From positions 37,184 through 101,183 of the forward strand of contig CACWXP010000010.1 of NCBI GenBank assembly GCA_902764875.1: 64,000 nt of DNA. Reading direction: 5' to 3'. The translations under genes and the position numbers were made by a program. This DNA is from an uncultured Eubacteriales bacterium (GTDB lineage Bacteria > Bacillota > Clostridia > Christensenellales > Aristaeellaceae). Below are positions 36,081 to 52,643 of this stretch, one piece after another; the first letter of the stretch is position 1, and the number at the start of each line of letters is the position of its first letter. Under the pieces are notes generated by a model, which ran no database searches, was not told where the DNA came from, and saw only the letters and a list, made by a program, of their open reading frames with translations.

Positions 36081-37994
36081 ATGGAAGCAATTCTGAACGG
36101 TATTGCCTCGGCTCTCGGCGCGGTCATGGACGTATGCTACTCCGTCTGCAAAAACTACGGCCTGGCCATCATCCTTTTTACGCTGATCTCCAAAATCATC
36201 CTGCTCCCGATCAGCATCTGGGTGCATTACAACGGCATCAAAATGGTCCGGATGATGCCGAAAATCAACTGGCTGCACGTAAACCACTACGGCGACCGGG
36301 ACGCCATCGCCGAAGGCCAGGCGAAGCTCTATAAGGAAGAGAAGTACAGCCCCCTGGCCGGCCTGGTGCCGATCGTCATCCAGCTGATCCTTCTCCTGGG
36401 TCTGGTGGAGGTCATCAGAAACCTGATCGCCAAAGGCAATCCGGACGACCTGATGTTCCTGGGGATCAACCTGGGCTGGGTGCCGTCGGAAAAGGGCGGG
36501 ATTTCCCTGATCGTGCCGGTGCTGGCGGCGCTCAGCGCCCTGGTGATGACGGTGACCCAGAACCGGGACCAGGCCCTCCAGGCGGAGCAGAGCAAGCTGA
36601 ACAAATACAGCATGCTGATCATCTCCGTGGGTCTGAGCCTGTACCTGGGCCTCTTCGTTTCTGCGGGCGTTGGACTGTACTGGATCGCCAGCAACCTGTT
36701 CTCCGTGCTGCAGATGTACCTGCTGAACCGGGCGATTCCGCCGGAAAAGCACGTGGACTACGAAGAACTCGAAAAGAGCCGGGCCGCCCTGGCGGAGCTG
36801 GAGGCCCTGGGCGGCGGGAAAAAAAAGAAGCTGTTCGCCCGCGACCCGGACAGCAAACGGGAAAAAGAGGATTACAAGCGCTTCTTTTCCATCCGGAACA
36901 AGCACGTGGTGTTCTATTCCGAAAAGAGTGGCTTCTGGAAATATTTTAAGGACATCGCGGAGGAGCTGCTGAAAAGCAGCAACCTCCGGATCCACTACGT
37001 CACCAACGATCCGAAGGATCAGATCTTCGAAATCGCGAAAACCGAGCCCCGGATCCTGCCGTACTACATCGGGCCCCAGAAGATCATCCCCCTGATGATG
37101 AGAATGGACGCGGATCTGGTCGTCATGACCACCCCGGACCTGGACACCTATCACATCAAGCGCAGCTATGTCCGCAAGGACACGGAATACATCTACACGC
37201 CCCACGACCCCATGAGCGTGCACATGAGTTTCCGCGAAGGCGCCATGGACCACTTTGATACGGTCCTGTGCGTCGGGCCCCAGCAAATTCAGGAAATCCG
37301 CAAGACCGAAGAGGTATACGGCCTTCCGGCGAAAACCCTTGTGGAATGCGGTTACTGCCTGCTGGACGACATGAGGGCTGACTGGGAAAAACGGGAAAAG
37401 CAGCCCGGGGACGCCGTAAAGCGCGTCCTGATCGCCCCCAGCTGGAACGAGGACAATATCCTGGATTCCTGCGCCGATGAGCTGATCCGGAACCTGCTGA
37501 AGGAAGGCCGGAAGATCACGGTCCGCCCCCACCCGGAATATGTAAAGCGATACGCCCAGAAGCTCAATGCCCTGATGGACCGCTGGAAGGAGCAGACCGG
37601 GGTGGGCTTGGTATTTGAAACCGACTTTTCCTCCAACGAATCCCTGTATGAAGCCGATATCCTGATCACCGACTGGAGCGGCATTGCCTACGAATATGCT
37701 TACACCACCGGCAGGCCCGCGCTGTTCATCAATACAAAGATGAAAATGCCGAATCCGAACTGGGAAAAAATCGGCATCACGCCGCTGGAAATCGCCCTGC
37801 GGGATCAGATCGGCCGCTCCCTGAACAAGGACGAGCTGGACAAAGCCGGGGAAGTGATCGCGGAAATGGAATCCCACCCGGAAGCCTGGGCCGAAAAGAT
37901 CGCCAAAGTCCGGGAACAGAATATCTTCCATCCCGGCGAAGCGGGCAGAACCGCTGCGGAATACATCCTGAAATCCCTCATTTCCCGTGAATAG
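36081..37994 (+). CDS. YidC-like membrane domain fused to TagF-like (CDP-glycerol) glycerophosphotransferase
   Basis: This is a 637-residue two-module protein. Residues about 1-225 are a YidC/Oxa1-type region: NYGLAIILFTLISKIILLPISIWVHYNG (read as the first conserved helix and basic linker), a KYSPLAGLVPIVIQL segment and later helices ending at YWIASNLFSVLQMYLL. The groove arginine of true YidC appears to be replaced by lysine (TLISK). Residues about 270-637 are a GT-B poly(glycerophosphate) transferase-like domain with VVFYSEKSGFWKYF, YTPHDPMSVH, LIAPSWNEDN, RPHPEY (about residue 482) and ITDWSGIAYEYA (about 528). It probably polymerises or transfers phospho-alcohol units at the membrane. 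The fusion is unusual. Confidence 0.85.
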   Translation: MEAILNGIASALGAVMDVCYSVCKNYGLAIILFTLISKIILLPISIWVHYNGIKMVRMMPKINWLHVNHYGDRDAIAEGQAKLYKEEKYSPLAGLVPIVIQLILLLGLVEVIRNLIAKGNPDDLMFLGINLGWVPSEKGGISLIVPVLAALSALVMTVTQNRDQALQAEQSKLNKYSMLIISVGLSLYLGLFVSAGVGLYWIASNLFSVLQMYLLNRAIPPEKHVDYEELEKSRAALAELEALGGGKKKKLFARDPDSKREKEDYKRFFSIRNKHVVFYSEKSGFWKYFKDIAEELLKSSNLRIHYVTNDPKDQIFEIAKTEPRILPYYIGPQKIIPLMMRMDADLVVMTTPDLDTYHIKRSYVRKDTEYIYTPHDPMSVHMSFREGAMDHFDTVLCVGPQQIQEIRKTEEVYGLPAKTLVECGYCLLDDMRADWEKREKQPGDAVKRVLIAPSWNEDNILDSCADELIRNLLKEGRKITVRPHPEYVKRYAQKLNALMDRWKEQTGVGLVFETDFSSNESLYEADILITDWSGIAYEYAYTTGRPALFINTKMKMPNPNWEKIGITPLEIALRDQIGRSLNKDELDKAGEVIAEMESHPEAWAEKIAKVREQNIFHPGEAGRTAAEYILKSLISRE

Positions 37995-38027
37995 CGCGGA
38001 AAGAAGATTCCCATGGAGGCAGATCCA

Positions 38028-40436
38028 TTGAATAAACGTCGCTGGAAAAGATACGGCATCCTTTACTTCACAATCATCTTTGCCCTGGTTCCGGCCCTGG
38101 CGTCGGCTTATATCGACCCGTCGGTCACCACCTACGCCATCCAGGCCATCGCCGGCGTGGCGGTGGCGGCCGGCGCTTTCTTCGCTACCTACGGCCGAAG
38201 GATGAAAAAATCCTGGATGAAAACCGTTGGTCTGGATGAAAACGAAACCAAAGAAACCGAGCCGCCGGTGGAAATCACCCGGGAAGACCTGAAGGCGAAG
38301 CTGGCCACGGGGCGCGAAAACCGGTCCGAACCGGCGCCTGCCCCGAAGAAGGCCGGAAAAAACCTCAAAGGCCGGATCATCACCTCCCTGCTCTGCGGTC
38401 TGACCCCGGCCACCGCCCTGATCCTGCGGCCGATTCTCACCTTCTACATTGGCAATGAAGGTGAATTCTGGTTTAAACTGCAGGATCTCCTGCCCGATGT
38501 GCTGATGGTCTTCGTCATTGCCGCTCTCTTCGCGTTCGTGGTTCATCTGCTCCTGCCGGACGGCCGGAAGCTGAGCCTGCGGCTGTGGTTCGCCTCGGCG
38601 GTGACCGCCGGCACCCTCTGTGCCTTTATCCAGGACCACTTTCTCTCCGGCTACCTGCCGGCTCTGACCGGCGAGGAGATTGACTGGAGCGTCTACAGCA
38701 GCTGGAATACCGTGAGCCTGGCCCTCTGGGGCGGGGTTTTCCTGCTGACCCTGCTTCTGCTGATCTTCCGGCCCCGGTTTATGAAAGGAACGGTCTATGC
38801 CCTGCTGGCGCTGCTCCTGGTTTCGGAAGTGGTGGTCGGCACGGTGGATATCGCCTCAGCAAAGCACGAAAATAAGCGCACCGGCACCTATTTCACACAG
38901 GAAGGCATGTATGAAACCTCCGCGGTCGGGAACGTGGTGGTGCTGGTGACGGATACCTTCGAAGCCACGTATATGAACGAAATCCTGGAGAAATATCCGG
39001 ACTGCAAAGACTTCCTGCAGGACGTGACCTACTACGACAACACCTCCGGCATCTCGGTCTTCACCTATTTCAGCTATCCGAAGATTCTGACCGGCCAGGA
39101 CTTCCCCCTGGGCAAAACCTTTGTGGAAGGCGCCGCCTATGCCTTTGAAACGGAAACTCTGATCAGTCAGGTGGCTGAAAAAGGATGGGATATTGGCTAT
39201 TATACCGAATTCGCTCCCACCCCGAACGTAAAGGACAAGATCATCAGCTACGGTGACAGGGAGCTGCATCCCAACCGTCAGGCCCGGATTGACATCACCA
39301 AATACCTGATCAAGGGCGCGCTGTTCCGCAGCATGCCCCAGATGCTCAAGCCCCGGTTCGCCGTGACCACCCTGGACTTTGAATACGCCAAGTTCAACCT
39401 GGAAGGGGCGGAGGCACCCTATATCACCAACGACGGCGTCTACTTCGAAAACCTGAAGGAAAAAGGGCTGACCCGGGTGGAGGGAAAGCCCCGCTTCAAT
39501 GTGACAGAGCTGTTCGGGGTGCACGAACCCTGCACGCCGAATCTGGAAATGTATACCACGGATGAGTGGAACAGCCTCCCCGTTCACGAGCAGCAGCTGG
39601 CCACCGGCTATGTCCAGCTGAAGCTGCTGCGAACCTATCTGGACAAGCTGAAGGAAGCCGGCACCTACGACAGCACCACCGTGATCATGATTGCCGACCA
39701 CGGCAGGGAAAACCGCTTCTTCCCGCTCTGCCTGGTCAAGGAGGCGGGCCGGCAGGCCGACGGCTTCCGCATCGATCACACGGAACTGGCTTTGCAGAAT
39801 GACTATCCGGGTCTGATTACGGCCATGATGGACGGCAAATCCTTCTCGGAGGTCGCTGCGGCCGCCGCGGCTAGCGGACGTCCCCGGACCGGCCTGGACT
39901 TCCGGGCCCCGGCTTTCGGCGAGCGGGTGTTCTCCCGCTCCGAAGTGACGATTCACGGCGTGCCGAACGCCTGGCGGAACTGTGTGATCACCCGGGACGA
40001 ATTTGACCTGGATGACGAGTTCCCCGGACGGGCGAGGCTGAACGAGCCCTTTGTGAAGGGCACGAAGGTCAGCGGAAACAGCGTGGCGGTTTACGGCATA
40101 GAGGACGGGAACATCCCCGGCCACAGCGTGGCTTTCGACACCTTCTTTGAGAAGGCGGAGAAGCGCAGCCTGATTTTCAGGGCGAAGGTGACCAATGTCA
40201 CCGATGCCCCCCAGACCGTGGAGTTTACCCTGAACGGCGAACCCGTCGGCGAACCGGTCTTCCTGGAGGTTGGCTCCGGGGAAACCGACATTGAAATCCC
40301 CCTGCCGGAAACGGATACGGACCGCCTGACCTTCCAGCTCAACTTCCCCGAGGCGGCGAAAGTCTACAACCTGGGCTGGAGCACCTACCACAGCATCGCC
40401 ATCATCGAAGCTGAGTGGATTAGCTCAGCCCGGTAA
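38028..40436 (+). CDS. Membrane-anchored sulfatase/LtaS-fold phosphotransferase with YIDP-type anchor
   Basis: I prefer TTG 38028, eight bases after GGAGG; ATG 38013 is also in frame but would place that ribosome site inside the gene. About 802 residues: a hydrophobic signal-like segment ending ALASA, then YIDPSVTT and a helix, about five more helices (residues 115-290), and an alkaline-phosphatase-superfamily domain from NVVVLVTDTFE (about 302) to MIADHGREN (about 556), with SGISVFTYFSYP near the expected nucleophile. The last 150 residues look like a beta-sandwich. Enzymes of this fold transfer phosphoglycerol or phosphoethanolamine outside the cell. It follows the YidC-TagF gene. Confidence 0.82.
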   Translation: MNKRRWKRYGILYFTIIFALVPALASAYIDPSVTTYAIQAIAGVAVAAGAFFATYGRRMKKSWMKTVGLDENETKETEPPVEITREDLKAKLATGRENRSEPAPAPKKAGKNLKGRIITSLLCGLTPATALILRPILTFYIGNEGEFWFKLQDLLPDVLMVFVIAALFAFVVHLLLPDGRKLSLRLWFASAVTAGTLCAFIQDHFLSGYLPALTGEEIDWSVYSSWNTVSLALWGGVFLLTLLLLIFRPRFMKGTVYALLALLLVSEVVVGTVDIASAKHENKRTGTYFTQEGMYETSAVGNVVVLVTDTFEATYMNEILEKYPDCKDFLQDVTYYDNTSGISVFTYFSYPKILTGQDFPLGKTFVEGAAYAFETETLISQVAEKGWDIGYYTEFAPTPNVKDKIISYGDRELHPNRQARIDITKYLIKGALFRSMPQMLKPRFAVTTLDFEYAKFNLEGAEAPYITNDGVYFENLKEKGLTRVEGKPRFNVTELFGVHEPCTPNLEMYTTDEWNSLPVHEQQLATGYVQLKLLRTYLDKLKEAGTYDSTTVIMIADHGRENRFFPLCLVKEAGRQADGFRIDHTELALQNDYPGLITAMMDGKSFSEVAAAAAASGRPRTGLDFRAPAFGERVFSRSEVTIHGVPNAWRNCVITRDEFDLDDEFPGRARLNEPFVKGTKVSGNSVAVYGIEDGNIPGHSVAFDTFFEKAEKRSLIFRAKVTNVTDAPQTVEFTLNGEPVGEPVFLEVGSGETDIEIPLPETDTDRLTFQLNFPEAAKVYNLGWSTYHSIAIIEAEWISSAR

Positions 40437-40495
40437 TCATTGCAACGCCATCATTGAAGCCGGGTGGACCACCTCACCCCGGTCATTCATCGCAG
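40398..40495. repeat. 49-bp imperfect tandem duplication at a gene 3' end
   Basis: Units 40398-40446 and 40447-40495 align along their length (GCCATCAT-GAAGC..., ...CCCGGT.AT...). The first contains the last codons and TAA of the sulfatase-fold gene; the second is non-coding, so the duplication arose across the stop. Confidence 0.7.
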
Positions 40496-40560
40496 ACTCC
40501 GCCGGAGCCTGCGCCCGCTGATCCGCGAGAGTACGACAGCACTTTCAGGGAGGACAAAGC

Positions 40561-42453
40561 TTGTTCCCGGCTATTCTCTTTTTTGTCATTCTGATCACCC
40601 CGCCGCTGTTTCTGGCTGTATGGCGGAAGCGGCGCTTTGAGGAAACCATCGCGCTGACCTCCGGCGGGATGATCCTGTTCATGTACGTTCTCGGGATCAT
40701 CGGCCTGCTGAAAGTCAGCGTTTACCTGATCCTGGGCATCACCCTGGCGCTGCTGATCCTTTCAGCGGCGCGAATCTTCCGGGAGAAAACCCTGAAGCCG
40801 CTCATGCCCTTTTTCACCCCGGCGTTCCTGGCGTTCTTCCTGCTCTACATTTTCCTGCTTTACATCCACTACGAGCGCCTGCTTCACGAGTACGACGAGT
40901 TCACCCACTGGGGCGACGTGGTCAAGGCCATGTGCCATATCGACGCCTTCGCCACCAGCCCCCTGTCCCATTCAATTTTCCAGAACTATGTGCCCGGCAT
41001 GGCGGTCTTCCAGTATCTTTTTGAAAAGCTCGCCATGATCTTTCCGGGCGGAATCTTCGTGGACTGGAGGCTGTACTTTGCCTACTATCTGCTGACGGTC
41101 GTCTTCCTGCTTCCCTTCCTGACTGTCCGGAAGGGGCGCTGGTTCCTGCCGGCGCTGCTGCTGATGCTTTTCACGGCGGCGGCTCCGGCTTTCTTCGATC
41201 CGGAATCCCTGACGTCCATTTATGTGGACGGCTTCCTCGGCTTGCTGGCCGGGGCCGGTTTTGCGTTGCTGTTCCTGTGGAAGCCCTCCGGCCGGAAAAC
41301 CGCCCACATCCTGGTGATCTGCGCCCTGCTGGTGCTGGTGAAGGACGTGGGCATGCTGTTTGCCGTCACGCTGGCGGCGGCCTTTCTGATCTCGGAGCGG
41401 CCGCGAAACCGCGGGACGGGGCGAAAATTTCTGGGTCTGACAGCCCTGACGGCGGCCGCGGTGGCATTGCCCAAAATCCTCTGGGAAATCAGCATCCGGG
41501 TGAACCGCGCGGCCTCGATGAAATTCCGGCAGGGCATCGATCTGGGCGCCCTGTTCCGGGTGATCACCGGGCAGGAGACGACAGGCTACGCGGCGGAGAT
41601 CGGCGGGGTCACCGTCAACCGGCTGCTGACGGGCGTTGTCGGATTCCACGGGCCCATCGAAGTCAAGCTGAGCTACCCGGTTCTGGCGGCGATTCTGTTT
41701 GCCCTGCTGATCGTCGCGTGGATCCTCTGGAACCGGCAGGATCCGGAAGGAAAGAGCCGGCACAGAGCGGCGGCCGTCGGCGCGCTGGTGACCTTTGTGC
41801 TGTACTGCCTTGGTATGCCGCTGCTCTATATGTTCCTGCTGAGCACAGATGAAACGCTGGTCAGCTTTGACCGCTACATGGGCATCGTGCTGACCTGCCT
41901 GACCGTCATGATTTTCCTGCTGTTCGCTGCCTGGACTCAGGAAAGACCCGGCCGGACGATCGCGGGCGTCGGCGTCTGCGTGCTGATCGGGGCCATGACC
42001 CTGAATCCGGCGATCCTGGGGAAATACCTGAGCCGGGAATCCGTCAGCGACCAGTACTATGTGCAGGGGCGCCTTGACTCTTTCGTCCGGGAGATGAACG
42101 AAATCACGGGCGGGGAGGAGAAGCACGTCTGGATCATCACACAGGAATCGACGGGCTTCGAGTTCTGGCCGCTCCGCTACGGCATCCGCCCCGCCAACGG
42201 GGAAATCAACGTGGGCTTCAGCATTTCCGACCACACGAAATCTCTCTACCCCGGGGATATCTGGACGATTGTGATCCCGGCGGAGGAATGGCGGGAAAAG
42301 CTGAAGGATTATGACTACGTCATGATCTGGCAGGCGGATGACGTCTTCCGGGAAGACTACGCCGCCCTCTTCGAAAACCCATCCGACATCGCGGACCGCA
42401 CCATCTTCTCCGTCAACCACGAAACCGACCTTCTTGAAAGGGTTTATCAATGA
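40561..42453 (+). CDS. GT-C-like polytopic membrane glycosyltransferase
   Basis: This 630-residue protein starts at TTG 40561, with AGGGAGG upstream. It has about twelve or more membrane helices, an early extracytoplasmic loop carrying EYDEFTHWGDVVKAM (about residues 111-125), a second acidic pair in SIYVDGFLG, and a C-terminal soluble domain of about 150 residues (from YVQGRLDSF). The acidic residues on the first external loops followed by many helices and a soluble tail are typical of GT-C enzymes using polyprenyl-phosphate sugars. The specific family is not certain. It overlaps the DPPR synthase-like gene by 4 bases, so the latter may supply its donor. Confidence 0.68.
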   Translation: MFPAILFFVILITPPLFLAVWRKRRFEETIALTSGGMILFMYVLGIIGLLKVSVYLILGITLALLILSAARIFREKTLKPLMPFFTPAFLAFFLLYIFLLYIHYERLLHEYDEFTHWGDVVKAMCHIDAFATSPLSHSIFQNYVPGMAVFQYLFEKLAMIFPGGIFVDWRLYFAYYLLTVVFLLPFLTVRKGRWFLPALLLMLFTAAAPAFFDPESLTSIYVDGFLGLLAGAGFALLFLWKPSGRKTAHILVICALLVLVKDVGMLFAVTLAAAFLISERPRNRGTGRKFLGLTALTAAAVALPKILWEISIRVNRAASMKFRQGIDLGALFRVITGQETTGYAAEIGGVTVNRLLTGVVGFHGPIEVKLSYPVLAAILFALLIVAWILWNRQDPEGKSRHRAAAVGALVTFVLYCLGMPLLYMFLLSTDETLVSFDRYMGIVLTCLTVMIFLLFAAWTQERPGRTIAGVGVCVLIGAMTLNPAILGKYLSRESVSDQYYVQGRLDSFVREMNEITGGEEKHVWIITQESTGFEFWPLRYGIRPANGEINVGFSISDHTKSLYPGDIWTIVIPAEEWREKLKDYDYVMIWQADDVFREDYAALFENPSDIADRTIFSVNHETDLLERVYQ

Positions 42454-43385
42454 AAAAATATATCCGCATCATGCGCCTGGATCACTGGATCAAGCAGCTC
42501 TTCATACTCCCGGGCCTGGTGGCGTCCCTGTTCCTGACGAAAACCGCCTTCTCCGGGGAGCTGATCTGGAAACTCTGCGCCGGGTTCTTCGCCACCTGCC
42601 TGATTGCCTCCGCGAACTACGTCATCAACGAATGGCTGGACGCGGAGTTTGACAAATACCACCCGACAAAGAAATACCGCAGTGTGGTGTCGGAGGGCGT
42701 GAGCGGCCGGGTCGTCTGGGCCCTGTGGGCCTGTCTGTCTCTGGCCGGTTTCGGAATTTCCCTGCTGGTGAATATCCCGTTCCTCTGCATGAGCGGCTGG
42801 CTGTGGCTGATGGGCCTGCTCTACAATGTGAAACCCTTCCGCACAAAGGATGTTCCGTACCTGGACGTGCTGAGCGAATCCGTCAACAATGCGATCCGCC
42901 TGCTGATGGGCTGGTTCATCGCCTCCGGAACCACGGTTCCGCCGAGCAGCCTGCTCCTGGGCTACTGGATGGCCGGAGCCTTCCTGATGGCAACCAAGCG
43001 CTTCGCGGAATACCGGATGATCGGCGACCGGAAGGTGGCCGGCCTGTACCGGAAATCCTTCCGATATTACACGGAACAGTCCCTGCTGGTGTCCGCGTTT
43101 TTCTATGCCATGTGCTCCGTTTTCTTCCTGGGCACCTTCCTGGTCAAATACCGGATTGAGCTGGTGCTGCTCATGCCGTTCCTGATCGGGCTCTTCGGCT
43201 ACTATTTCCATCTGTCCTTTGCCCGGGACTCCGCGGTGCAGAAGCCCGAAAAGCTTTTCCGCGAAAAGGGCCTGATGCTGTATCTGCTGGTGTTCATCGG
43301 GCTGTTCATCCTGTTGATGTCGGTGGACATCCCGGGCCTGAACATCCTGACGGACAGCAAAATACTTTCCATTCCAGGTGCCTGA
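42450..43385 (+). CDS. UbiA-family decaprenyl-phosphate phosphoribosyltransferase-like protein
   Basis: This 311-residue protein has nine or so helices. The polyprenyl/PRPP-binding sequence NYVINEWLDAEFDKYHPTKKYR (asparagine/aspartate-rich motif with H-P-x-K) and the second motif DVLSESVNNAIRLLMG match DPPR synthases, which couple PRPP to polyprenyl phosphate to form polyprenyl-phosphoryl-phosphoribose. In mycobacteria this is the first step towards the arabinose donor for cell-wall arabinan. The genes for the later steps (phosphatase, DprE1/DprE2) are not in the window, so a ribofuranosyl donor may be the end product (inference). It overlaps the GT-C-like gene upstream. Confidence 0.87.
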   Translation: MKKYIRIMRLDHWIKQLFILPGLVASLFLTKTAFSGELIWKLCAGFFATCLIASANYVINEWLDAEFDKYHPTKKYRSVVSEGVSGRVVWALWACLSLAGFGISLLVNIPFLCMSGWLWLMGLLYNVKPFRTKDVPYLDVLSESVNNAIRLLMGWFIASGTTVPPSSLLLGYWMAGAFLMATKRFAEYRMIGDRKVAGLYRKSFRYYTEQSLLVSAFFYAMCSVFFLGTFLVKYRIELVLLMPFLIGLFGYYFHLSFARDSAVQKPEKLFREKGLMLYLLVFIGLFILLMSVDIPGLNILTDSKILSIPGA

Positions 43386-43399
43386 AGGAGGACAGTGCA

Positions 43400-44659
43400 T
43401 TGATACGAAAAGGTCTGATACGGACACTGCAGATCGCCCTGATCCCCGTGGCCTGCGGGAGCCTTGGCCTGATCCTGCTGGCGCTGAGCTTTCTGCTGCC
43501 CACGGGGAGCATCCGGGGACATGTGGAAGCCTCCGTGGATCAGCTCTATGACGAAGGGGTCTATCACTCGGTGACCCCGAAGCTGGCCGGGGCCCAGCTG
43601 GACAACTACACCGAAGCCCTGTATCTGAACCAGGCGCTGGTGGGCGGAAGCGACGCGCCGATCCTGGACTGCGTGCTGGAGGGCTATCAGTTTGAACCGC
43701 CGGCCGCTGACGGATACCGGGATCCCATCGTGAAGCTGAAATCCGCTGTGGAGGACCCGGCATCCGCGTCCCTGATCCCCGAAAACAAGCGTTTCTTCAA
43801 CGGATACACCGTGGTCATGAAGATCCTGCTGGAGCTGACCCACTACTCCGGGATCCGCCAGATCAACCTGTACCTGGGCCTGTTTCTGTTCCTGATCCTG
43901 CTCCGGGGAATGATGAAGCGCGGGCTGCAGCGGTATATCCTTCCGGTGGTCGTCTCCCTGCTGCTGATCCATCCGGTGACCATGGCGCTGAACATGGCCT
44001 CCTTCGGATTCTTCGTCTGCATGATGGTTCCCTGTATCCTGATGCTCTGGCTGAAAAGGGAAACCCTGGAGAAACGGGGCTGGCTGCTCTTCGGAATCAC
44101 CGGCGCGGCCACCTATTACTTCAACATGAACTACATCCAGCTGCTCTGCTTCGGCGTGCCGGTGCTGTTTTACTTTCTCCTGACCGGCGTTCCGGAAAAG
44201 CCGCTGAAACTGCTCGCCCGTCTGGCGGAACTTTTCATTGCCTGGATGGCCGGACTGGTCGGGATGATGGTCTTTAAATGGGCCGCCTACGCGGTGCTGA
44301 AGGATCCCGGCGTCTTCAGGGAAATGCTGGATCAGTTCTTCTTCCGCACGGGCCTGAGTGAAGGCAGCCGCACGGACGCGGTCCTCCATAACATTCAGAT
44401 CGCTTTTGAAAATAACTGGTGGAATCTGCTGGAGCTGCTCTTCATCGCGGGAACGGTGATCCGGCGGATCCGCGGAAAAGAGAAATGCGCCATTTCCCTT
44501 TCCGAAGTCCTGCTGCTTCTGGTGATGATCCTGCTCCCCCTCGGCCGCTATTTCATTCTCTCCAACCACGTGCTGGTGCACGGCTGGACCACCTACCGGC
44601 TGCTGATGATCCCGGTGCTGGCTTTCAACCTTTGGATCACGGGGGTAGAGTCTCGTTGA
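43400..44659 (+). CDS. Polytopic membrane protein of unknown function, paralogue 3 of 3
   Basis: This 419-residue protein starts at TTG 43400, eight bases after AAGGAGGA. It shares the architecture of the proteins at 5401 and 34767: LLPTGSIRGH, DNYTEALYLNQ, IVKLKSAVEDP, LKRETLEKRGWLLFGITG, TGVPEKPLKLL and a C-terminal NHVLVHGWTTYR. It follows the DPPR synthase-like gene, which would fit use of a polyprenyl-phosphate sugar, but no activity is known. Its last codons and TGA (ITGVESR) lie in a family A palindrome, followed by a terminator. Confidence 0.75.
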   Translation: MIRKGLIRTLQIALIPVACGSLGLILLALSFLLPTGSIRGHVEASVDQLYDEGVYHSVTPKLAGAQLDNYTEALYLNQALVGGSDAPILDCVLEGYQFEPPAADGYRDPIVKLKSAVEDPASASLIPENKRFFNGYTVVMKILLELTHYSGIRQINLYLGLFLFLILLRGMMKRGLQRYILPVVVSLLLIHPVTMALNMASFGFFVCMMVPCILMLWLKRETLEKRGWLLFGITGAATYYFNMNYIQLLCFGVPVLFYFLLTGVPEKPLKLLARLAELFIAWMAGLVGMMVFKWAAYAVLKDPGVFREMLDQFFFRTGLSEGSRTDAVLHNIQIAFENNWWNLLELLFIAGTVIRRIRGKEKCAISLSEVLLLLVMILLPLGRYFILSNHVLVHGWTTYRLLMIPVLAFNLWITGVESR

Positions 44660-44663
44660 TCCA
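44634..44663. repeat. Family A 30-bp palindromic repeat, copy 10
   Basis: GGATCACGGGGGTAGAGTCTC...TGATCCA with arms extended to TTTGGATCA/TGATCCAAA. The right-arm TGA (44657-44659) is the stop of paralogue 3. Confidence 0.87.
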
Positions 44664-44699
44664 AACTTGCGCCGAAAATAATTCAGCTCCAAAAGAATC

Positions 44700-44737
44700 A
44701 GGCACCCCGGGGAAATGCCCGGCGGTGCCTTTTTTTA
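44700..44737 (+). terminator. Rho-independent terminator
   Basis: GGCACC-CCGGG / CCCGG-C-GGTGCC stem with a six-base loop, followed by seven T residues (44731-44737). It ends the plus-strand run at the convergent junction with the minus-strand YidC-sulfatase gene. Confidence 0.88.
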
Positions 44738-44764
44738 CCCTTTTTGAAATTTGATCTTTCCTGA

Positions 44765-47362
44765 TCAATCTCCGATTTCCGCAATCTTCCAGTTCTCCGG
44801 ATCGGCCCGGTCATGATGGACAAACGCGTAAAAACCTTCGTCCATGCCTTTGAAAAAGGAATTCCCGGCGGCGTCGAAATCGTTGGTTATGCTGGTATTG
44901 CAAAGAATTTGTGTGTCCTCCTGTTTCATGGAATCCGTCACCGGAACCCCGGTGGCCGGATTCACCGGATCGTTCACCAGTCCGCCGAAGGCCAGCAGCG
45001 GCGTGTCCGCGTTGGTCATGAACTCGCTGCTGTAGGAAAAATCTCCTTCGCTCCCGAAATCCTTCACCAGCAGCAGAGGATAGAAGGCGCAGGTATCCTG
45101 CTGCGCTGTTTCCGACCAGGTCTCCGGATAATCCAGGGCAATGCCGTGATCCGCCGTCAGGATGATCCGGGTGTTGTCATAAACGCCTTCCGCCCGCATA
45201 TAATCCAGCCACTGCCCGATCAGCATCATTGCGGCCATGTTCACCTGATAATGCATTTTCTGTTTGTCGGTGGTCAGCTGGATTTCCCGTCCGTCCGCCG
45301 CGGTCCGGGTCGGATGCTCCAGATCATACCGTTCATTGTCGATGGAGGCCGCCGGCTCATATGCCGGTTCCTGCAGGAATCGCGGCTCGTGGGTCAGATC
45401 GCAGGTTTTCATCAGGAAAGTGTTCACGCCTTCCGCCTGCACCTGCGTCATCGCCGGCAGATTCTTCATCATCAGGTAATCGTCGGTGGTCACGAAATCG
45501 TGCAGCGCCTTGTCCGTCTGGTTGTAATTCCCGCTGTCGTAGAGCTTTGAATGCAGCAGAACCGGGGCGGCCCGGAACACGCTGTAGCAGAACAGGTTCC
45601 GCTCCCGCACGCGGTTCCGGTCCGCGATGCCTTCCTGGCTGTCGTCCGAATCGCTGCCCTCCCAGACGCCTTTGGTGGAATACACGTGAATTTCCGGATG
45701 ATCGTCGTAGATCGTCAGATCCGGGATGATCATGGAGTAGTTGGCATAAGGCGGATCCTGCACGGTCACGTCAAACCCGTTCTCCGAAAAGATCAGCGGC
45801 ATCAGGCGGAGGGCTTCGTTCTGCTTTTCCACCATGGAGGCGTCCCCGCGCTCCAGCAGTTTCAGCGGCGTATACTCATAGCCGCCGAAGAGGCCGGGCG
45901 TGCCGGAATGGGTGCCCTTGCCGTAGGAAATGGTGTTCAGATAGCAGGTGAAGCCTCTGAACTGCTCCTGCAGCTCCGGTTTTTCCGCAAAGATAAACGG
46001 CGTAAAATACCCCAGTGCCCGGTCCAGCATCAGAACGACCACGTTTTTCCCGTTCCGGTCCAGATGAATGGTCTTTTCCCGGGTTTCCTTCCGCTGCTCC
46101 GCCAGGCGCTGAATCTCCGGCATCTTTCCGGCAACGGAAATCATATTCGCCAGCGCCATTCCGCCGATCACCAGGGCGGTCAGCGTGCAGGCTGCCCGGA
46201 GAAGCACCGTCTTTTTCCGCCAGAGGAAATAGACCGCACAGGCCATGCCGCAGAGGATGCCGGCGTTGAGAAGCTTGTCCGACAGGGTGACGGTATCATG
46301 GATATCGTTGTCATAGATCAGGCGGGAGGAGATGTTGCCGTACCCTGTGCCGAAAAACATATAGTCTGCCACCGCCGCCAGGGCCAGGAAGGCAAAAAGG
46401 AGCGCAAAAAGGGGACGGCGGCGCTCTTCCGCCAGCAGATAAAAAAGGACGCTCCAGATCAGGAAAGTACCGGCGGCCAGCAGAAAGCTGTGGAAAATAT
46501 ACACCAGCGGGGACTGCAGCGCGTTCAGTTCCACAAACTCGGCGGGAGAGTCGGCAATCAGGGCGGAGGGAATCAGCAGCCCGGTCAGCGCCGTCAGCAG
46601 CACGCAGGCGGTCAGGAAGATAGCCCGCTGGTGCTTTACAATCCCCACCGGAAGGGTGCGGCCTGCCTTTTCAGCTTCTCCGGAGGGCTTCTTCAGCATA
46701 CCAAGCAGATTCTTCCCCAGGGAGAACAGGTTATTCAGCGTCCAGTACAGCACCAGTCCCGCCGGGGAATCATACAGAAGCACCAGAAAGATCAGCGCCA
46801 TGCCGTAGAGCTGGATCTTGCTCTTCAGGGGCTGGCCCCGGGTATAGATCATGCCGGAGACAATATTGATCCCCGTCATCAGGATCGGCAGCACGTTGAT
46901 CGTGACGGAGCCGAGGGAAAGCATCCCGTCCGGCGCGGCCAGATCCGCGATCGGTCCGAAGGAGACGCCCCGCAGCGCCTGCAGACCGGAAAGGAAATTG
47001 TACGCTGCCATGAAGAACGGAATCTGCAGCAGCAGCGAGAGCGACCCGCGCAGCGCGTACCAGGGCTTGTAGTTGTTTTGCCGATATAGGGTCTGGAGCA
47101 TCATGAACCGCTCGTCCCCGGTGAAAGCCTCTTTAATCTGGTCGATCCGGGGCTTCAGCCGCTTCGAGATTGCCTGCTCCTCTTTCTGCAGATCATCCGC
47201 CTTCTTATATAAAGGCAGCACCAGCAGGTTGATGACAATGCTCAGAACGACGATGGAAAGAACCGGACTGCCCGTGAATTCTTTCGACAGCGAAAACACG
47301 ACGTCGAACAGCAATTCGATTGGTCCGAGAAGCAGCTTGTACAGCATTTCCCAAACAGTCAT
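44765..47362 (-). CDS. YidC-like membrane domain fused to sulfatase/LtaS-fold phosphotransferase
   Basis: I prefer the second ATG (47362), eight bases after GAGGG; a first ATG at 47368 is too close. About 865 residues. Residues 1-225 are YidC-like: SPVLSIVVLSIVINLLVLPLY followed by a charged coiled segment (KEEQAISKRLKPRIDQIK), LYRQNNYKPW, LLLQIPFFMAAYNFLSG and SPAGLVLYWTLNNLFSL; the groove arginine is replaced by asparagine (SIVIN). Four to six further helices follow (230-430). The C-terminal domain has KNVVVLMLDRALGYF (about 438), YGKGTHSGTPGLFGGYEYTP and LTADHGIALDYPE (about 738), consistent with an alkaline-phosphatase-fold transferase with a Thr/Ser nucleophile. It pairs with the TagF-like gene upstream. 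Confidence 0.85.
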   Translation of the reverse strand: MTVWEMLYKLLLGPIELLFDVVFSLSKEFTGSPVLSIVVLSIVINLLVLPLYKKADDLQKEEQAISKRLKPRIDQIKEAFTGDERFMMLQTLYRQNNYKPWYALRGSLSLLLQIPFFMAAYNFLSGLQALRGVSFGPIADLAAPDGMLSLGSVTINVLPILMTGINIVSGMIYTRGQPLKSKIQLYGMALIFLVLLYDSPAGLVLYWTLNNLFSLGKNLLGMLKKPSGEAEKAGRTLPVGIVKHQRAIFLTACVLLTALTGLLIPSALIADSPAEFVELNALQSPLVYIFHSFLLAAGTFLIWSVLFYLLAEERRRPLFALLFAFLALAAVADYMFFGTGYGNISSRLIYDNDIHDTVTLSDKLLNAGILCGMACAVYFLWRKKTVLLRAACTLTALVIGGMALANMISVAGKMPEIQRLAEQRKETREKTIHLDRNGKNVVVLMLDRALGYFTPFIFAEKPELQEQFRGFTCYLNTISYGKGTHSGTPGLFGGYEYTPLKLLERGDASMVEKQNEALRLMPLIFSENGFDVTVQDPPYANYSMIIPDLTIYDDHPEIHVYSTKGVWEGSDSDDSQEGIADRNRVRERNLFCYSVFRAAPVLLHSKLYDSGNYNQTDKALHDFVTTDDYLMMKNLPAMTQVQAEGVNTFLMKTCDLTHEPRFLQEPAYEPAASIDNERYDLEHPTRTAADGREIQLTTDKQKMHYQVNMAAMMLIGQWLDYMRAEGVYDNTRIILTADHGIALDYPETWSETAQQDTCAFYPLLLVKDFGSEGDFSYSSEFMTNADTPLLAFGGLVNDPVNPATGVPVTDSMKQEDTQILCNTSITNDFDAAGNSFFKGMDEGFYAFVHHDRADPENWKIAEIGD

Positions 47363-47392
47363 TTGCATTCCCTCTGCCCCGTTTTTTCTGTA

Positions 47393-48703
47393 TTACATGA
47401 CGCCGGAAAGCTTTGTATCCTGCCGCTGTGCAGGCGTAGGAGCGGCAGCCTTCTGCCCGGCCGTTGCCACGATCTCCTCCAGACAGTCCACGACTTTCAC
47501 GGCGGATTCCCCGATGCAGTGCCAGGAGTCTTCCCGCACCTGCCGGATGTTGGCCTTCAGTTCCGCGGAATCCAGGCACGCCCGGATCACATCCCCGATC
47601 CGGCCCACGTTCTCTTCCGTCAGCTGTACGCCGATCTTCGGCAGCACGGTTTCATGCCACATGGGGCCTTCCACCCAGGAAGCGTCATAGGGTTTGGGAT
47701 CGAAGGACGTGTCCGCGTAAATCACGGGCTTTTCAAACACAAAGGCATAGTCGAACACCACGCCGGAAAAATCGGAAATCAGCACGTCCGCCCGGGACAG
47801 GGAATCGTAGTTGTCGCTCTTCCGGTCCCATTCCAGCCGGTCCGAGTCCGGATACTTCGCCTGCAGCCGCGCCATCAGCTCCGCCTCCGAGGTGAAGGAC
47901 TGGGGATGGGGCCGGAGGATGAGATGGTAATCCGTCTTCAGGAGCGCCTCCAGAAGGGTCTCTCCGTAGCGGCTGAGAAGGGCGCTCGCACCCCAGGAAG
48001 GCGCCAGAAGGACGGTTTGCGGCCCACGGCCGCCTGCGCCGCCCGGAGCATCGTCCGCCCTGCCGGCCCGGTCTGCCTGCGCCCGCTTCAGCATTTCATC
48101 CATATACGGCATACCGACGACCCGGAGCTCTTTCTCCGGCAGCCGCCGGGCCTTTTCCGTCTCCCGCACGGTCTTCCCCTGGAAAGGACCGGCCAGAAGG
48201 ATCGTGTCGTAATAATCCAGGCCGAACATCCGGTAGGTGCCGAAATCGTAAATCCCGTGGGGGATATGCACATACTTCTTCACGTCCCGGGAGCGCTTCC
48301 ACTGATACACGTCCAGCCCCGGCGTGCTGGACAGCACCACGTCCGCCCGGATCATGTTCATCCGCGCGAAGGCCCGGTTGCCGCTTCCGGCGAACTCGGT
48401 TTTCACATATTCATAGGTTTCCGAAAGCGCCGGATCGTCTTCCGATGCGGTCAGGTACAGGGCCTTCTGCTTCCGCTTTTCCAGCTCCTCGCAGATCGGC
48501 CGGAACAGGTTCCAGTACCGCTTGCTGTCCGTGAAGATCACGACCGGAATTTCCGGCCCGTCCGTTTTGGCTTTTTTCCCGCCGGTAAGGGTAAACTTCA
48601 GCTTCATCAGGGCATTCCGGAAAAAATAAACCAGTGCGCCGAGGACGCCGATGAGGATCGTGAACAGCATGCTGCCCGTGCCGGGATCGATATAGAGATT
48701 CAT
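47393..48703 (-). CDS. TagF-like glycerophosphotransferase with N-terminal YIDPGTGS anchor
   Basis: This 436-residue protein is preceded by GGAGAG. It begins MNLYIDPGTGSMLFT and has a single membrane helix (about residues 11-31), followed by a GT-B CDP-glycerol:polyglycerophosphate transferase-like domain with VVIFTDSKRYWNLF, YVHIPHGIYDF, VLLAPSWGASALL, LRPHPQS and LISDFSGVVFDYAFVFEKP. It would transfer phospho-polyol units on the cytoplasmic face. The YIDP anchor is the same type seen on the sulfatase-fold enzyme at 38028, whereas the catalytic domain matches the YidC fusion at 36081. Confidence 0.87.
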   Translation of the reverse strand: MNLYIDPGTGSMLFTILIGVLGALVYFFRNALMKLKFTLTGGKKAKTDGPEIPVVIFTDSKRYWNLFRPICEELEKRKQKALYLTASEDDPALSETYEYVKTEFAGSGNRAFARMNMIRADVVLSSTPGLDVYQWKRSRDVKKYVHIPHGIYDFGTYRMFGLDYYDTILLAGPFQGKTVRETEKARRLPEKELRVVGMPYMDEMLKRAQADRAGRADDAPGGAGGRGPQTVLLAPSWGASALLSRYGETLLEALLKTDYHLILRPHPQSFTSEAELMARLQAKYPDSDRLEWDRKSDNYDSLSRADVLISDFSGVVFDYAFVFEKPVIYADTSFDPKPYDASWVEGPMWHETVLPKIGVQLTEENVGRIGDVIRACLDSAELKANIRQVREDSWHCIGESAVKVVDCLEEIVATAGQKAAAPTPAQRQDTKLSGVM

Positions 48704-48728: not shown

Positions 48729-49694
48729 TCAATTCAGTGCCTTCAGAATATCTTCTGCAATCTGCTCCGCGGTCAGTCGGCACTGCTCCAGCAGGTATCC
48801 GTAGCTCCCTGCGTGGGGGAAGAAGTCCCGGATGCCCAGCATCAGCTGCGGGGGTTTTTGGGCAACCGGTGCTAAAGTTTCCGCCACGGCACTGCCGAGG
48901 CCGCCGACAATGCTGGCCTCCTCAACCGTAACGATGAGTTTCTTGTCCAGCTGTTCCATCACCGCCTCCGTATCCAGCGGCTTGATCGTATGCATATCCA
49001 GCACGGCGGCGTCAATGCCCTTCCCGGCCAGGAATTCCGCGGCTTTCCGGGCGTAATACACCATGGTTCCCGCCGCGATGATCGAGATATCTTTCCCTTC
49101 TCGGACGGAAATCGCCTTCCCGATCTCAAAGAGGAAATCTTCCTCATAAACGATCGGCAGCCCCGGCCCGCCGGTCAGCCGCAGATACACCGGGCCTTTG
49201 AAATCGCAGAGGGCTTCCACGGTTTTGATGATGGCCGCCCCGTCCGCGGGGTTTACGACGGTCATTCCCGGAATGGCCCGCATCATGGACCCGTCCTCCA
49301 GGCCGAAATGGGAATTACCCAGCTGGGCCATGATCAGCCCGCTGCCCAGGCCTACGGTCTTGATGTTCAGTTGCATATAGCCCATGTTCATCCGCACCTG
49401 CTCGCAGGCCCGCATGGTGACAAAGGGCGAAAAGGACGTGGCAAAAACGTTCGTCCCGTCCTTTGCCAGTCCGGCCGCCACGCCGATCATGTTCTGCTCT
49501 GCGATGCCGGTGTTGATCATCCGCTCCGGAAATTCACTGCGGAACCGGGCAAGGCCGGAGGACTGGGCCAGGTCCGCGGAAAGGACGTAGAAATCGTCCC
49601 GTTCCTTTGCGCATTCGAGAATCGCCTGGCCGAAAACCGCCCGGGCGCCGATGCGGGACCAGAGTTTCGCTTTGGCTTTCGTGATCTCGGTCAC
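48729..49694 (-). CDS. Transketolase C-terminal subunit, set 1
   Basis: This 321-residue protein starts at GTG 49694 after GGAGGTG and overlaps its partner's stop (GTGA). It contains the pyrimidine-binding and C-terminal domains of a split transketolase: TGIAEQNMIGVAAGLA with the catalytic glutamate that activates thiamine diphosphate, then FGLEDGSMMRAIPGMTVVNPADG and TVEEASIVGGLGSAVAE. Together with the N-terminal subunit encoded upstream it would transfer a two-carbon ketol unit between sugars. The next genes on the strand are polymer synthases, so a specialised sugar precursor is likely. Confidence 0.9.
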   Translation of the reverse strand: MTEITKAKAKLWSRIGARAVFGQAILECAKERDDFYVLSADLAQSSGLARFRSEFPERMINTGIAEQNMIGVAAGLAKDGTNVFATSFSPFVTMRACEQVRMNMGYMQLNIKTVGLGSGLIMAQLGNSHFGLEDGSMMRAIPGMTVVNPADGAAIIKTVEALCDFKGPVYLRLTGGPGLPIVYEEDFLFEIGKAISVREGKDISIIAAGTMVYYARKAAEFLAGKGIDAAVLDMHTIKPLDTEAVMEQLDKKLIVTVEEASIVGGLGSAVAETLAPVAQKPPQLMLGIRDFFPHAGSYGYLLEQCRLTAEQIAEDILKALN

Positions 49695-50671: not shown

Positions 50672-50738
50672 GCACAACGTTCCGCGGATTTTTGAACATT
50701 CTCCCGGGAACTAAATGACCAGACAGGAGACCTGTGAA

Positions 50739-51794
50739 ATGAACAAGAAGCTGATTGCCATAATCGCTATTTTGATGAGCGCCCTGCTGCTGCTGACTGC
50801 CTGCGGGAGCAGCGGGAACAACACTCCCGCGGCTAAGGAAGAAAACAAGGAAGCCTCCGGAAAGAAGGAATCCGTCGTGATCTACACCGCGGCGGAGGAC
50901 GAGCGCATCGCCTACCTCCAGGAGGCGCTGGACAAGAAGTTCCCCGACGTTTCCATCGTGATCCAGTCCCTGGGCACCGGCCAGCTGCTTTCCCGCCTCC
51001 AGGCGGAAGGCAAGAACAGCGACTGCGATATCTTCTATGACCTGGAAGTCGTGAACGCCGAAATCATCCTGAACGCTTCCCCGGATCTGTTCGCGGACCT
51101 GAGCGAATACGACTTCTCCGTGTATGACGCGTCCGTCACCGGCTACACCGACCGGCACCACAAGTACGCCGTCAACGGCAAGACTGCCGGCGCCTTCCTG
51201 GTAAACACCAAAATGCTGGAGGAAAAGGGCCTGGCCGTTCCGGAGACCTATGAAGACATGCTGAAGGAAGAATACAAGGGCCTGATCTCCATGCCGAGCC
51301 CGAAATCCTCCGGCACCGGCTACAGCTATTACAACGGCATGATCACGATGCTCGGCGAAGAGGAAGGCATGAAGTACTTCGAAACCCTGAACCCGAACAT
51401 CAAGGAATACACCACCTCCGGCTCCGCCCCGGCGAAGGCCGCCGTCCGCGGCGACGTGGCGATTGCTTACGGCCTGCTGTGGCAGTGCGTGAACTATGCC
51501 AACGAAAACGAGGGCCTGAAGGTCGTCGTACCCTCCCAGGGCCTGGCCTTCGACCTCTTCACCATGGGCATGATCTCCGGCCACGAAACGAAGCAGGCCG
51601 TGAAGGACGTGTTCACCTACCTGTACAACGAGCTGAACAAGCCCCAGTGCGCGAAGTTCAACCCGGACAAAATCTATGCCGACATGCCCGCGGCGGAGAT
51701 CAAAAACTATCCGGCAAGCTATGAGGAAATCACCATGAAGGGCCTCTTCGATTTCCAGTACAAGCAGAACCTGCTGGACCAGTGGAAGTACTGA
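50739..51794 (+). CDS. ABC transporter solute-binding lipoprotein (Fe3+/2-aminoethylphosphonate-type)
   Basis: The start is ATG 50739, after CAGGAGA; 351 residues. The first 22 residues are a lipoprotein signal peptide with lipobox LLTAC (Cys22), followed by a Ser/Gly/Lys-rich linker. The mature protein has ESVVIYTAAEDERI, IQSLGTGQLLSRLQAEG, GYTDRHHKYAV and TSGSAPAKAAVRGDVAIAYG, the pattern of type II binding proteins of the iron/thiamine/2-aminoethylphosphonate class. A small phosphonate or amino-alcohol phosphate fits the downstream LicC-like domains better than iron does (inference). It is exported and tethered to the membrane. Confidence 0.88.
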   Translation: MNKKLIAIIAILMSALLLLTACGSSGNNTPAAKEENKEASGKKESVVIYTAAEDERIAYLQEALDKKFPDVSIVIQSLGTGQLLSRLQAEGKNSDCDIFYDLEVVNAEIILNASPDLFADLSEYDFSVYDASVTGYTDRHHKYAVNGKTAGAFLVNTKMLEEKGLAVPETYEDMLKEEYKGLISMPSPKSSGTGYSYYNGMITMLGEEEGMKYFETLNPNIKEYTTSGSAPAKAAVRGDVAIAYGLLWQCVNYANENEGLKVVVPSQGLAFDLFTMGMISGHETKQAVKDVFTYLYNELNKPQCAKFNPDKIYADMPAAEIKNYPASYEEITMKGLFDFQYKQNLLDQWKY

Positions 51795-51803
51795 TCTGCT
51801 TTT

Positions 51804-51840
51804 GCGCCAATGCGCCAATGGGGACAGACCCCATTGGCGT
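51804..51840. repeat. Family C repeat, copy 3
   Basis: CGCCAATGGGG-ACAGA-CCCCATTGGCG perfect 11-bp inverted repeat, preceded by a partial duplicate TGCGCCAA, in the gap between the binding-protein and ATPase genes. Confidence 0.87.
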
Positions 51841-51869
51841 AGTCCTGTTTCCGACGGGGAGGAACATGA

Positions 51870-52643
51870 ATGCCTGAAACAAAAACCGAAATCATCCAAT
51901 TCGAAAACGTCAGCAAAAAATTTAAATCCCGCACGGTTCTCGAAGATCTGACCTTCTCCGTGAACCGCGGGGAATTTTTGTCTCTGCTGGGACCCTCGGG
52001 CTGCGGAAAGACGACGATCCTCCGGATGCTGATCGGCATCGAGAAGCCCACCGGCGGGCGGATTCTCAAAGACGGCATGGATATTACGAACACCCCGCCG
52101 AAGGAGAGGAACATCGGGATCGTTTTCCAGAACTATTCCCTGTTTCCGAACATGGACGTGTGGCACAACATCGCCTATGCCCTGCAGAGCCGGAAACTGC
52201 CGAAGGATGAAATCGACCGGAAGGTGCGGGAAATCATCGAGACCGTCGGTCTGGAAGAGCACGTGCGCAAAAAGCCGAAACAGCTCTCCGGCGGCCAGCA
52301 GCAGCGCGTGGCTATCGCCAGGACGCTGGTGCTGAATCCGGACATGATCCTTTTCGACGAGCCCATGAGCGCCCTGGACGCGGAGATCAAGCTGGCCCTG
52401 CGCCGGCAGCTGAAGGACATCCAGCGGAAGCTGAAAATCACCATGATCTACGTGACCCACGACCAGGAGGAGGCCTTCGCCCTTTCCGACCGGATTATGG
52501 TAATCAACGACATGCACATCGCGCAGCTGGATACGCCCTACAACCTGTATCACAACCCGGCGGATCCGTTCGTGAAGCGATTCGTCGTGGATCATCTGGA
52601 CCTGAAGGTCCGGTCCATTGAACAGTCGATTCAGGAGAGATGA
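51870..52643 (+). CDS. ABC transporter ATP-binding protein
   Basis: This 257-residue importer ATPase has Walker A GPSGCGKTT, Q-loop VFQNYSL, signature LSGGQQQRVAIA, Walker B ILFDEPMSALDA and the switch histidine in VTHDQEEA. It has no long C-terminal regulatory domain (only about 40 residues), unlike FbpC/PotA with their OB-folds. It would energise uptake through the permease encoded next, with which it shares a 4-base ATGA overlap. Confidence 0.93.
   Translation: MPETKTEIIQFENVSKKFKSRTVLEDLTFSVNRGEFLSLLGPSGCGKTTILRMLIGIEKPTGGRILKDGMDITNTPPKERNIGIVFQNYSLFPNMDVWHNIAYALQSRKLPKDEIDRKVREIIETVGLEEHVRKKPKQLSGGQQQRVAIARTLVLNPDMILFDEPMSALDAEIKLALRRQLKDIQRKLKITMIYVTHDQEEAFALSDRIMVINDMHIAQLDTPYNLYHNPADPFVKRFVVDHLDLKVRSIEQSIQER

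Follow-up and report, generated by a model that had tools for sequence, protein, structure and literature searches.

The window analysed in the present study is a stretch of 64,000 nucleotides of contig CACWXP010000010.1, which belongs to a draft genome (67 contigs, 93% complete) of an uncultured Eubacteriales bacterium of the family Aristaeellaceae. It contains two loci where a YidC domain is fused to an enzyme, a TagF-like glycosyltransferase of the GT-B fold in one case and a phosphotransferase of the sulfatase fold in the other, and where the adjoining gene begins with a short helix designated here YIDP after its first residues.

The first locus lies on the forward strand. Its YidC-TagF fusion protein (36081-37994, 637 amino acids (aa)) combines the Pfam families PF02096 (60KD_IMP/YidC, 108 bits at residues 26-217) and PF04464 (Glyphos_transf, 45.3 bits at residues 269-549). 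The YidC module, residues 1-230, occupies 36081..36770 and carries the groove residue Lys38 (codon 36192-36194); the GT-B domain, residues 270-637 (36888..37994), is predicted to be cytoplasmic. The following YIDP-sulfatase gene, 38013-40436, encodes a protein of 807 aa. A signal-peptide-like start ending in A-S-A precedes the YIDP helix (38013..38362, YIDP at residue 33, codons from 38109), and predicted membrane spans lead to a sulfatase-fold phosphotransferase domain (38364..40436), recognised by PF00884 (22.8 bits) and a motif scan and placed outside by crude hydropathy. An earlier reading of this DNA, made from the sequence alone and called here the sequence-only reading, had begun this gene at 38028, which is a TTG codon five codons inside the 38013 start.

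The second locus lies on the reverse strand. The YidC-sulfatase fusion protein (44765-47368, 867 aa) matches YidC with 93.2 bits at residues 37-221 and Sulfatase with 18.4 bits at residues 685-749. Its YidC module, again residues 1-230, is encoded at 46679..47368, with the groove residue Asn47 at 47228-47230; a five-span membrane domain (residues 247-427) and an LtaS/MCR-type catalytic domain (residues 434-867), together at 44765..46630, were delimited from an AlphaFold2 model, a Foldseek search and invariant alignment columns. The adjoining YIDP-GT-B protein (47393-48703, 436 aa, N-terminus MNLYIDPGTGSMLFTILIG) consists of an N-terminal YIDPGTGSMLFTILIG helix, predicted N-out (48584..48694), and a TagF-like GT-B domain (47393..48570, PF04464 49.8 bits).

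The YidC and Glyphos_transf scores exceed the Pfam cut-offs (35 bits for PF02096 and 22.1 for PF04464), and both Sulfatase scores fall below the cut-off of 25 for PF00884. The NCBIfam domain yidC_oxa1_cterm was also found above its cut-off in both YidC fusions. All four domain assignments of the sequence-only reading hold at their places by the Pfam search, and its statement that each locus has one YidC and one YIDP anchor on opposite catalytic domains was confirmed, since the complementary parts are present and are conserved in relatives. A third pair, a 898-aa YidC-sulfatase adjoining a 452-aa YIDP-GT-B, occurs on contig C1 of the same genome. The ordinary yidC lies on a separate contig, C15, in the order rnpA-yidD-yidC-jag, as judged by eye.

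YidC modules and catalytic domains

Searches of the PDB with sequence profiles of the two families retrieved YidC structures, 5mg3 for the YidC-sulfatase family (E 7e-12) and 3wvf for the YidC-TagF family (E 2.7e-20). The AlphaFold2 model of the complete YidC-sulfatase protein, built from 54 rows, has a mean predicted local distance difference test score (pLDDT) of 87.7 and a predicted TM-score of 0.85, and Foldseek superimposed it on E. coli YidC 6al2 with a root-mean-square deviation of 3.7 over 215 columns at 26% identity. Both regions are real YidC domains by profile and PDB sequence, the sulfatase type also by fold, as the sequence-only reading had proposed for the two N-terminal halves. 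Like the insertases of the YidC/Oxa1/Alb3 family, they possess the five-span core, and the cytoplasmic C1 hairpin is present in both window modules. Unlike those insertases, they are fused to enzymes, lie outside the ordinary yidC operon and, in the sulfatase type, have asparagine in place of arginine or lysine. In YidC-TagF proteins of about 700 aa (L107, L108 and most of L117-L137) the second conserved span is followed by an insertion several tens of residues long.

The positive charge of the YidC groove is described as strictly conserved in the passages of one report that concern the groove; according to the same passages, lysine kept E. coli YidC active in a background where arginine was essential, and the charge can be spared when neighbouring residues keep the groove hydrophilic (PMC8920935). 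The sequence-only reading had noted that the groove arginine is changed in both window proteins, which is correct (Lys38 and Asn47), and had concluded that the modules are probably not insertases. For the TagF type this conclusion does not stand. Lysine occupies the position in 34/37 YidC-TagF proteins and arginine in 3/37, and the true YidC proteins of the Aristaeellaceae (L012-L041 and L006) are divided between arginine (15/31) and lysine (16/31). The lysine is thus ordinary and was rejected as a proof of a non-insertase; the TagF type could still insert proteins, because lysine works in YidC and is normal in the family. For the sulfatase type the conclusion keeps its basis. Asparagine was found in 23 of the 27 proteins of a first set, the remainder having Ser, Thr, His or a gap, and in all 54 distinct aligned rows of a second set, which comprised the window protein and 53 of the 106 long genes of 78 named loci. 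Judging from these alignments, the invariant asparagine is a real departure, a conserved change and not a random one. Other polar residues inside the predicted spans are invariant as well, and the full series comprises N47, T165, N168, N212, N213 and S216.

The sulfatase half of the 44765 protein was matched by Foldseek to MCR-1 (E 1.1e-7), PbgA and LtaS. The TM-scores, 0.19-0.28 by query, are low, as is to be expected when a model of several domains is compared with single ones, and comparable scores were obtained for sulfatases and phosphonate monoester hydrolases. It follows from the model that the predicted sulfatase fold is firm and that the exact kind of enzyme is not. Thr486, Asp449, His660, Asp740 and His741 are invariant in the catalytic domain, with Thr486, Asp449, Asp740 and His741 invariant in each of two alignments; by comparison with LtaS, Thr486 is presumably the nucleophile and Asp449, Asp740 and His741 presumably metal ligands. 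The motif scan of the 38013 protein found a threonine in the nucleophile place (VFTYFSYPKILTG) and an ADHG metal motif, and a sequence search of solved structures with this protein returned nothing useful. The resemblance to LtaS, MCR-1/EptA and PbgA thus includes the five helices with a sulfatase fold, the threonine and the invariant metal-ligand residues, and the differences are the YidC module in front (44765) or the YIDP helix (38013) and the Pfam Sulfatase scores below cut-off.

For the YIDP-GT-B protein, a model was built of a read-through chain that continues into the membrane part of the YidC-sulfatase (70 rows, pLDDT 85.3). The alignment comprised 10 read-through pairs, 28 GT-B rows and 32 YidC-sulfatase rows, out of more; the pairs were those of the window and of 9 of the 11 in-frame pairs, L200 and L227 (two stops) being left out. 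The best Foldseek match of the YIDP-GT-B part was TagF 3l7m (E 1.3e-9, TM-score 0.59 by target), followed by many other GT-B enzymes. Both window GT-B proteins therefore resemble the wall teichoic acid polymerase TagF in exceeding its Pfam cut-off, the YIDP-GT-B also in its best structural match, and differ from it in having a YidC or YIDP membrane part of their own and in the absence from the assembly of a CDP-glycerol synthesis gene above cut-off. The predicted topology, derived from hydropathy and, for 44765, from the AlphaFold2 model, places the GT-B domains inside and the sulfatase folds outside, in agreement with the placement that the sequence-only reading had expected of TagF-like and LtaS-like halves. 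The YidC core ends inside and directly precedes the GT-B domain, and in the sulfatase type five more helices lie between.

Distribution, origin and the YIDP partner

Among the 308 genomes of the family, 49 matched the YidC-TagF query at E 1e-30, some via the GT-B half only, and 27 matched the YidC-sulfatase query. In total, 37 YidC-TagF genes of 34 genomes were read, the window's included, and two more, of G215 and G281, cut by contig ends, were not counted; distinct YidC-sulfatase genes number 127, some of them also cut by contig ends. This confirms that the fusions recur in other genomes and are no assembly error. A pattern scan of named genomes gave at least 593 stretches, 580 of them relatives, and the best 80 of these yielded the 78 named loci, which hold 106 long YidC-sulfatase genes with overlapping loci included. 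By NCBI ranks, 74 of the 78 belong to Bacillota, two to Actinomycetota and two are unassigned; most are from Clostridia, many are rumen or gut genomes by their record titles, and they include Butyrivibrio (sp. INlla21), Schwartzia succinivorans DSM 10502 and one Eggerthellaceae genome. An even sample of the class showed a YidC-sulfatase match at 1e-80 in 12/391 genomes, the window's own among them. When the phylum was searched with the YidC-TagF profile, the matches other than the window genome and two GT-B matches in G553 were single YidC-like ones in frames of 306-434 aa, which were taken as plain YidC. The distribution of the fusions is patchy and the fusions are real. In three loci (L222, L227 and L229) several YidC-sulfatase genes stand in tandem, accompanied by one or two GT-B genes. 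The families of the individual components are already known. No description of a YidC-TagF or YidC-sulfatase fusion was found in the open-access PMC literature, judged by titles and abstract starts, and the joining of these families and their YIDP partner appear to be undescribed.

The sequence-only reading regarded the two window loci as a paralogous pair recombined by exchange. A recent exchange of this kind finds no support in a tree of 69 YidC modules (every second row per group, one in eight of the named-locus genes, and six rows as outgroup), where the TagF-type modules formed one clade and the sulfatase-type modules another (Shimodaira-Hasegawa-like approximate likelihood ratio test 99, quick method), or in the identity of the two GT-B types, which is 27-32% only. 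With the 38013 protein as query, the YidC-sulfatase of the third locus was matched at 28% over no more than 123 residues, and 44765 was absent from the reported matches. A recent domain swap between the two loci was rejected, since each YidC module type forms one clade. When two long-branch rows were left out, one shared fused ancestor for both clades had a p value of 0.597 in the approximately unbiased test. The two fusion types are arrangements of long standing and have been inherited stably.

The YIDP helix accompanies the YidC module, an association that is new here. A stand-alone open reading frame of 52-100 aa encoding it was found on the same strand beside 31/37 YidC-TagF genes, within 540 bases in 30 cases and at 2,035 bases in one. 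At four further genes (those of the window, L109, L133 and L137) the element is fused to the adjacent sulfatase, and for this reason no stand-alone YIDP gene is visible in the window. The usual pattern, taken from 20 aligned sequences, is a signal-peptide-like start, the motif AYIDPSxTTYxIQAxAGxxVAVGA and a basic tail; L134 has a shorter YLDPGFGSM form without the signal-peptide-like start. A signal-peptidase-like end stands just before the tyrosine in 30 of the 31 stand-alone forms (A-x-A in 29, GKA in one), and the mature N-terminus is therefore predicted to be Tyr-Ile-Asp-Pro, located outside. None of the three stand-alone forms of L117, L270 and L272 scored above a curated Pfam or NCBIfam cut-off. 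A control scan of loci without YidC-TagF (whole scan 2.38 Mb) gave three stand-alone matches, two of which (L185 and L188) are apparent heads of YIDP-GT-B genes cut by a contig end, and the third (L201) is apparently due to chance.

At the YidC-sulfatase loci, a YIDP-headed GT-B gene was present in 71 of the 97 distinct locus groups, and three more groups had a GT-B match without a readable YIDP. This link is independent of the search, because GT-B was not part of the locus query. The idea that YIDP is a unique mark of YidC fusions was rejected, as it also occurs beside other sulfatases. Outside YidC fusions, the small YIDP or YLDPG proteins of L270, L271, L272 and L273 stand directly before a protein with an SFRDPSG-like start; in L270 this protein is weakly methyltransferase-like and a sulfatase comes after it, and in L272 a sulfatase lies upstream.

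Eight relatives with a decayed YidC module (L104, L111 and L161-L166) provide a natural control. They form a graded series of decay: in L104 (15304-17982) the module is eroded, in L161-L166 the hairpin and the last spans are lost, and in L111 (8984-11473) about the first span only is kept, beside a complete YidC-TagF and YIDP gene, as judged by eye. A YIDP-headed GT-B was found in 16/19 genomes with an intact YidC-sulfatase, a 17th (G220) having a GT-B with its start outside the fetched region, and in 0/7 genomes with a decayed module only. One of these seven, G215, has part of a GT-B at a contig end, similar to a truncated YidC-TagF. The probability that a split of this kind arises by chance, calculated by hand as C(10,7)/C(26,7), is 1.8e-4, a figure that ignores the kinship of the genomes.

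Genomic setting and donor

The setting of the window loci is a large surface-glycan cluster with glycosyltransferases, two NeuB genes, a weak O-antigen-ligase match and UbiA. Near the second locus, 50715..55264 (+) encodes a 2-aminoethylphosphonate-type ATP-binding cassette (ABC) transporter consisting of a binding protein, an ATPase and a permease fused to a nucleotidyltransferase. Its PhnS2/PhnT2/PhnU2 NCBIfam matches are below the equivalog cut-offs, and the NTP_transferase domain is above cut-off. The transporter may supply an activated phosphono- or phospho-substituent. The fused permease (52640-55264, +, 874 aa) possibly joins import and activation on one chain. Near 8 TagF-type and 11 sulfatase-type loci there is an ABC-ATPase cluster, which may mix unrelated ATPases. 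The cluster most often found among the neighbours, with 58 genes at 8 TagF-type and 30 sulfatase-type loci, has one annotated representative, a helix-turn-helix/nucleotidyltransferase/choline-kinase protein, and such clusters can mix families. At L275 the pair adjoins a 2-aminoethylphosphonate transaminase, a phosphoenolpyruvate (PEP) mutase fused to a cytidylyltransferase-like domain, and a phosphonopyruvate decarboxylase. The window genome itself contains two LicD matches and a PEP-mutase/cytidylyltransferase-like protein, which by eye looks like the one at L275.

In the 93%-complete window assembly no glycerol-3-phosphate cytidylyltransferase and one IspD-like gene were found above cut-off, so that the phospho-polyol polymer suggested by the sequence-only reading is doubtful. 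Because of these neighbours and this gene content (LicD, PEP mutase, no glycerol-3-phosphate cytidylyltransferase), glycerol or ribitol phosphate is a less likely donor than a phosphono- or phospho-amine, with the reservation that the assembly is incomplete to the stated extent and that LicD could share the donor. Choline-kinase/nucleotidyltransferase-like, 2-aminoethylphosphonate-transporter-like or phosphonate genes near some loci recall the Lic/Pnt tailoring of surface glycans with phosphocholine or 2-aminoethylphosphonate; the main text of the paper on that system describes LicD-like phosphotransferases and glycosyltransferases near phosphonate genes and does not contain the word YidC (PMC6697681).

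Several further genes of the window were observed. Two membrane proteins (34767-36008 and 43400-44659, +), one beside each YidC locus, look alike by eye and have no Pfam match up to E 0.1. The UbiA-family gene (42450-43385, +) lies between the two YidC loci, and its best NCBIfam match, decaprenyl-phosphate phosphoribosyltransferase, is below cut-off. Two split transketolase-like pairs (48729-50533, -, and 57136-58909, +) are situated close together.

Possible functions of the YidC groove

Fusions, co-occurrence and predicted placement indicate that the two systems consist of four common parts joined differently: a TagF-like transferase, an LtaS/MCR/EptA-like phosphotransferase, a YidC groove and a YIDP helix. 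The suggestion of the sequence-only reading that the groove links inside and outside steps remains the leading idea. Enzymes of the LtaS/EptA/MCR type take their group from an outer-leaflet lipid. A lipid would have to cross the membrane, since the outer enzymes draw on such lipid and the TagF-like enzyme loads inside. The systems could then be two-sided surface-modification systems that make, flip and transfer. In the cytoplasm, the TagF-like enzyme would attach a phospho- or phosphono-compound, taken from a CMP or CDP donor, to a lipid carrier. The head of this lipid would cross the membrane through the hydrophilic groove of the YidC module, and the substituent would then be transferred by the outer enzyme to a surface glycan or a growing polymer. 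The YIDP helix, with its conserved N-terminus at the outer face, would dock onto the YidC module and tie the two enzymes to each other. The YidC module would be a lipid flippase or scramblase private to the system and, at least in the Asn type, no general insertase. That the groove moves a lipid-linked donor between the two enzymes is a tentative reading, held with somewhat less than even confidence. Scrambling of phospholipids is on record for E. coli YidC in vitro and, in simulation, for every Oxa1 member tested, as stated in the portion of the report dealing with scrambling (PMC10491306).

There are observations that weigh against such a mechanism. The YidC module is dispensable for at least some relatives, which keep the sulfatase half. 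G201 and G282 have an intact YidC module yet no YIDP-headed GT-B, and G206 has a YIDP-GT-B without a YidC-sulfatase match. YidC-TagF without YIDP was found in 2/37 cases (L122, which stops at a contig end, and L103, which does not). The fetched stretch lacks a GT-B in 23 of the 97 YidC-sulfatase groups; more than 2 kb is available on both sides in 12 of these, and the other 11 are less than 800 bases from a stretch end. Small YIDP-like proteins occur in 4/299 genomes of the phylum sample besides the window's own, and these four have no YidC-TagF match and no YidC module in the 18-19 kb read. The YIDP helix reached a block-mean pLDDT of only about 45-74 in the read-through co-fold of the two adjacent genes.

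The same parts can be read without any movement of lipid. The YidC module might be a private insertase that inserts and holds the YIDP helix of its partner, so that the two enzymes assemble together. A short N-tail, an N-out orientation and a single span are the shape typical of YidC clients, and predictions for the YIDP helix give the N-out orientation, a very short tail and positive charges that follow its single span; YIDP and the YidC module co-occur, and intact modules keep the cytoplasmic hairpin. Nevertheless, the stand-alone YIDP has a signal-peptide-like start and could be exported through Sec, a normal YidC is present in the genome, and the groove charge is replaced by asparagine in all 54 sulfatase-type modules, the last point being not decisive, as a hydrophilic groove can spare the charge according to the groove passages already cited (PMC8920935). 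This alternative is considered rather unlikely, and a slightly lower probability still is given to a YidC fold that serves as a multi-span scaffold, keeping the cytoplasmic and the outer enzyme together, with a groove that has no transport role. The decay of the module in eight relatives agrees with a scaffold, as the Thr motif of the sulfatase catalytic domain is still found by pattern in seven of them. However, the C1 hairpin is kept and polar residues inside the predicted spans are invariant, which argues for selection on more than an anchor, and single-span anchors would suffice for that purpose.

Much less probable is a chance fusion of modules that continue to work as general insertases and have no special meaning for the surface pathway: the lysine of the TagF-type groove is compatible with insertion, but each fusion type forms one long-lived clade with a specific partner, and asparagine replaces the charge in the sulfatase type. 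An assembly or frame artefact, which a draft genome in many contigs might produce, can practically be dismissed, because the same fusions occur with open frames in many genomes, isolates among them, including the records of Butyrivibrio sp. INlla21 and Schwartzia succinivorans DSM 10502.

Movement of a lipid-linked donor by the YidC groove would resemble the combination of an LtaA-type flippase with LtaS, where a lipid is made inside, flipped and used outside, as far as can be deduced from the parts present. LtaA has a different transporter fold and is a separate protein. Somewhat more doubtful than the mechanism itself is the broader proposal that a branch of the Oxa1/YidC superfamily acts as a lipid-intermediate flippase inside surface transferases, with YIDP as a micro-subunit completing the groove, which would set it apart from Wzx, ABC, LtaA-type and synthase-type export. 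If this is true, one of the oldest membrane machines would be reused to move lipid-linked building blocks of the cell surface, and the in-vitro scrambling of YidC would become a physiological function, testable since the enzyme and the groove are on one chain. YIDP would then be a new small-protein partner, and the case would show that annotation of these genes as 'membrane protein insertase YidC' can mislead. Surface phosphoglycans of gut bacteria matter for colonisation and immune recognition.

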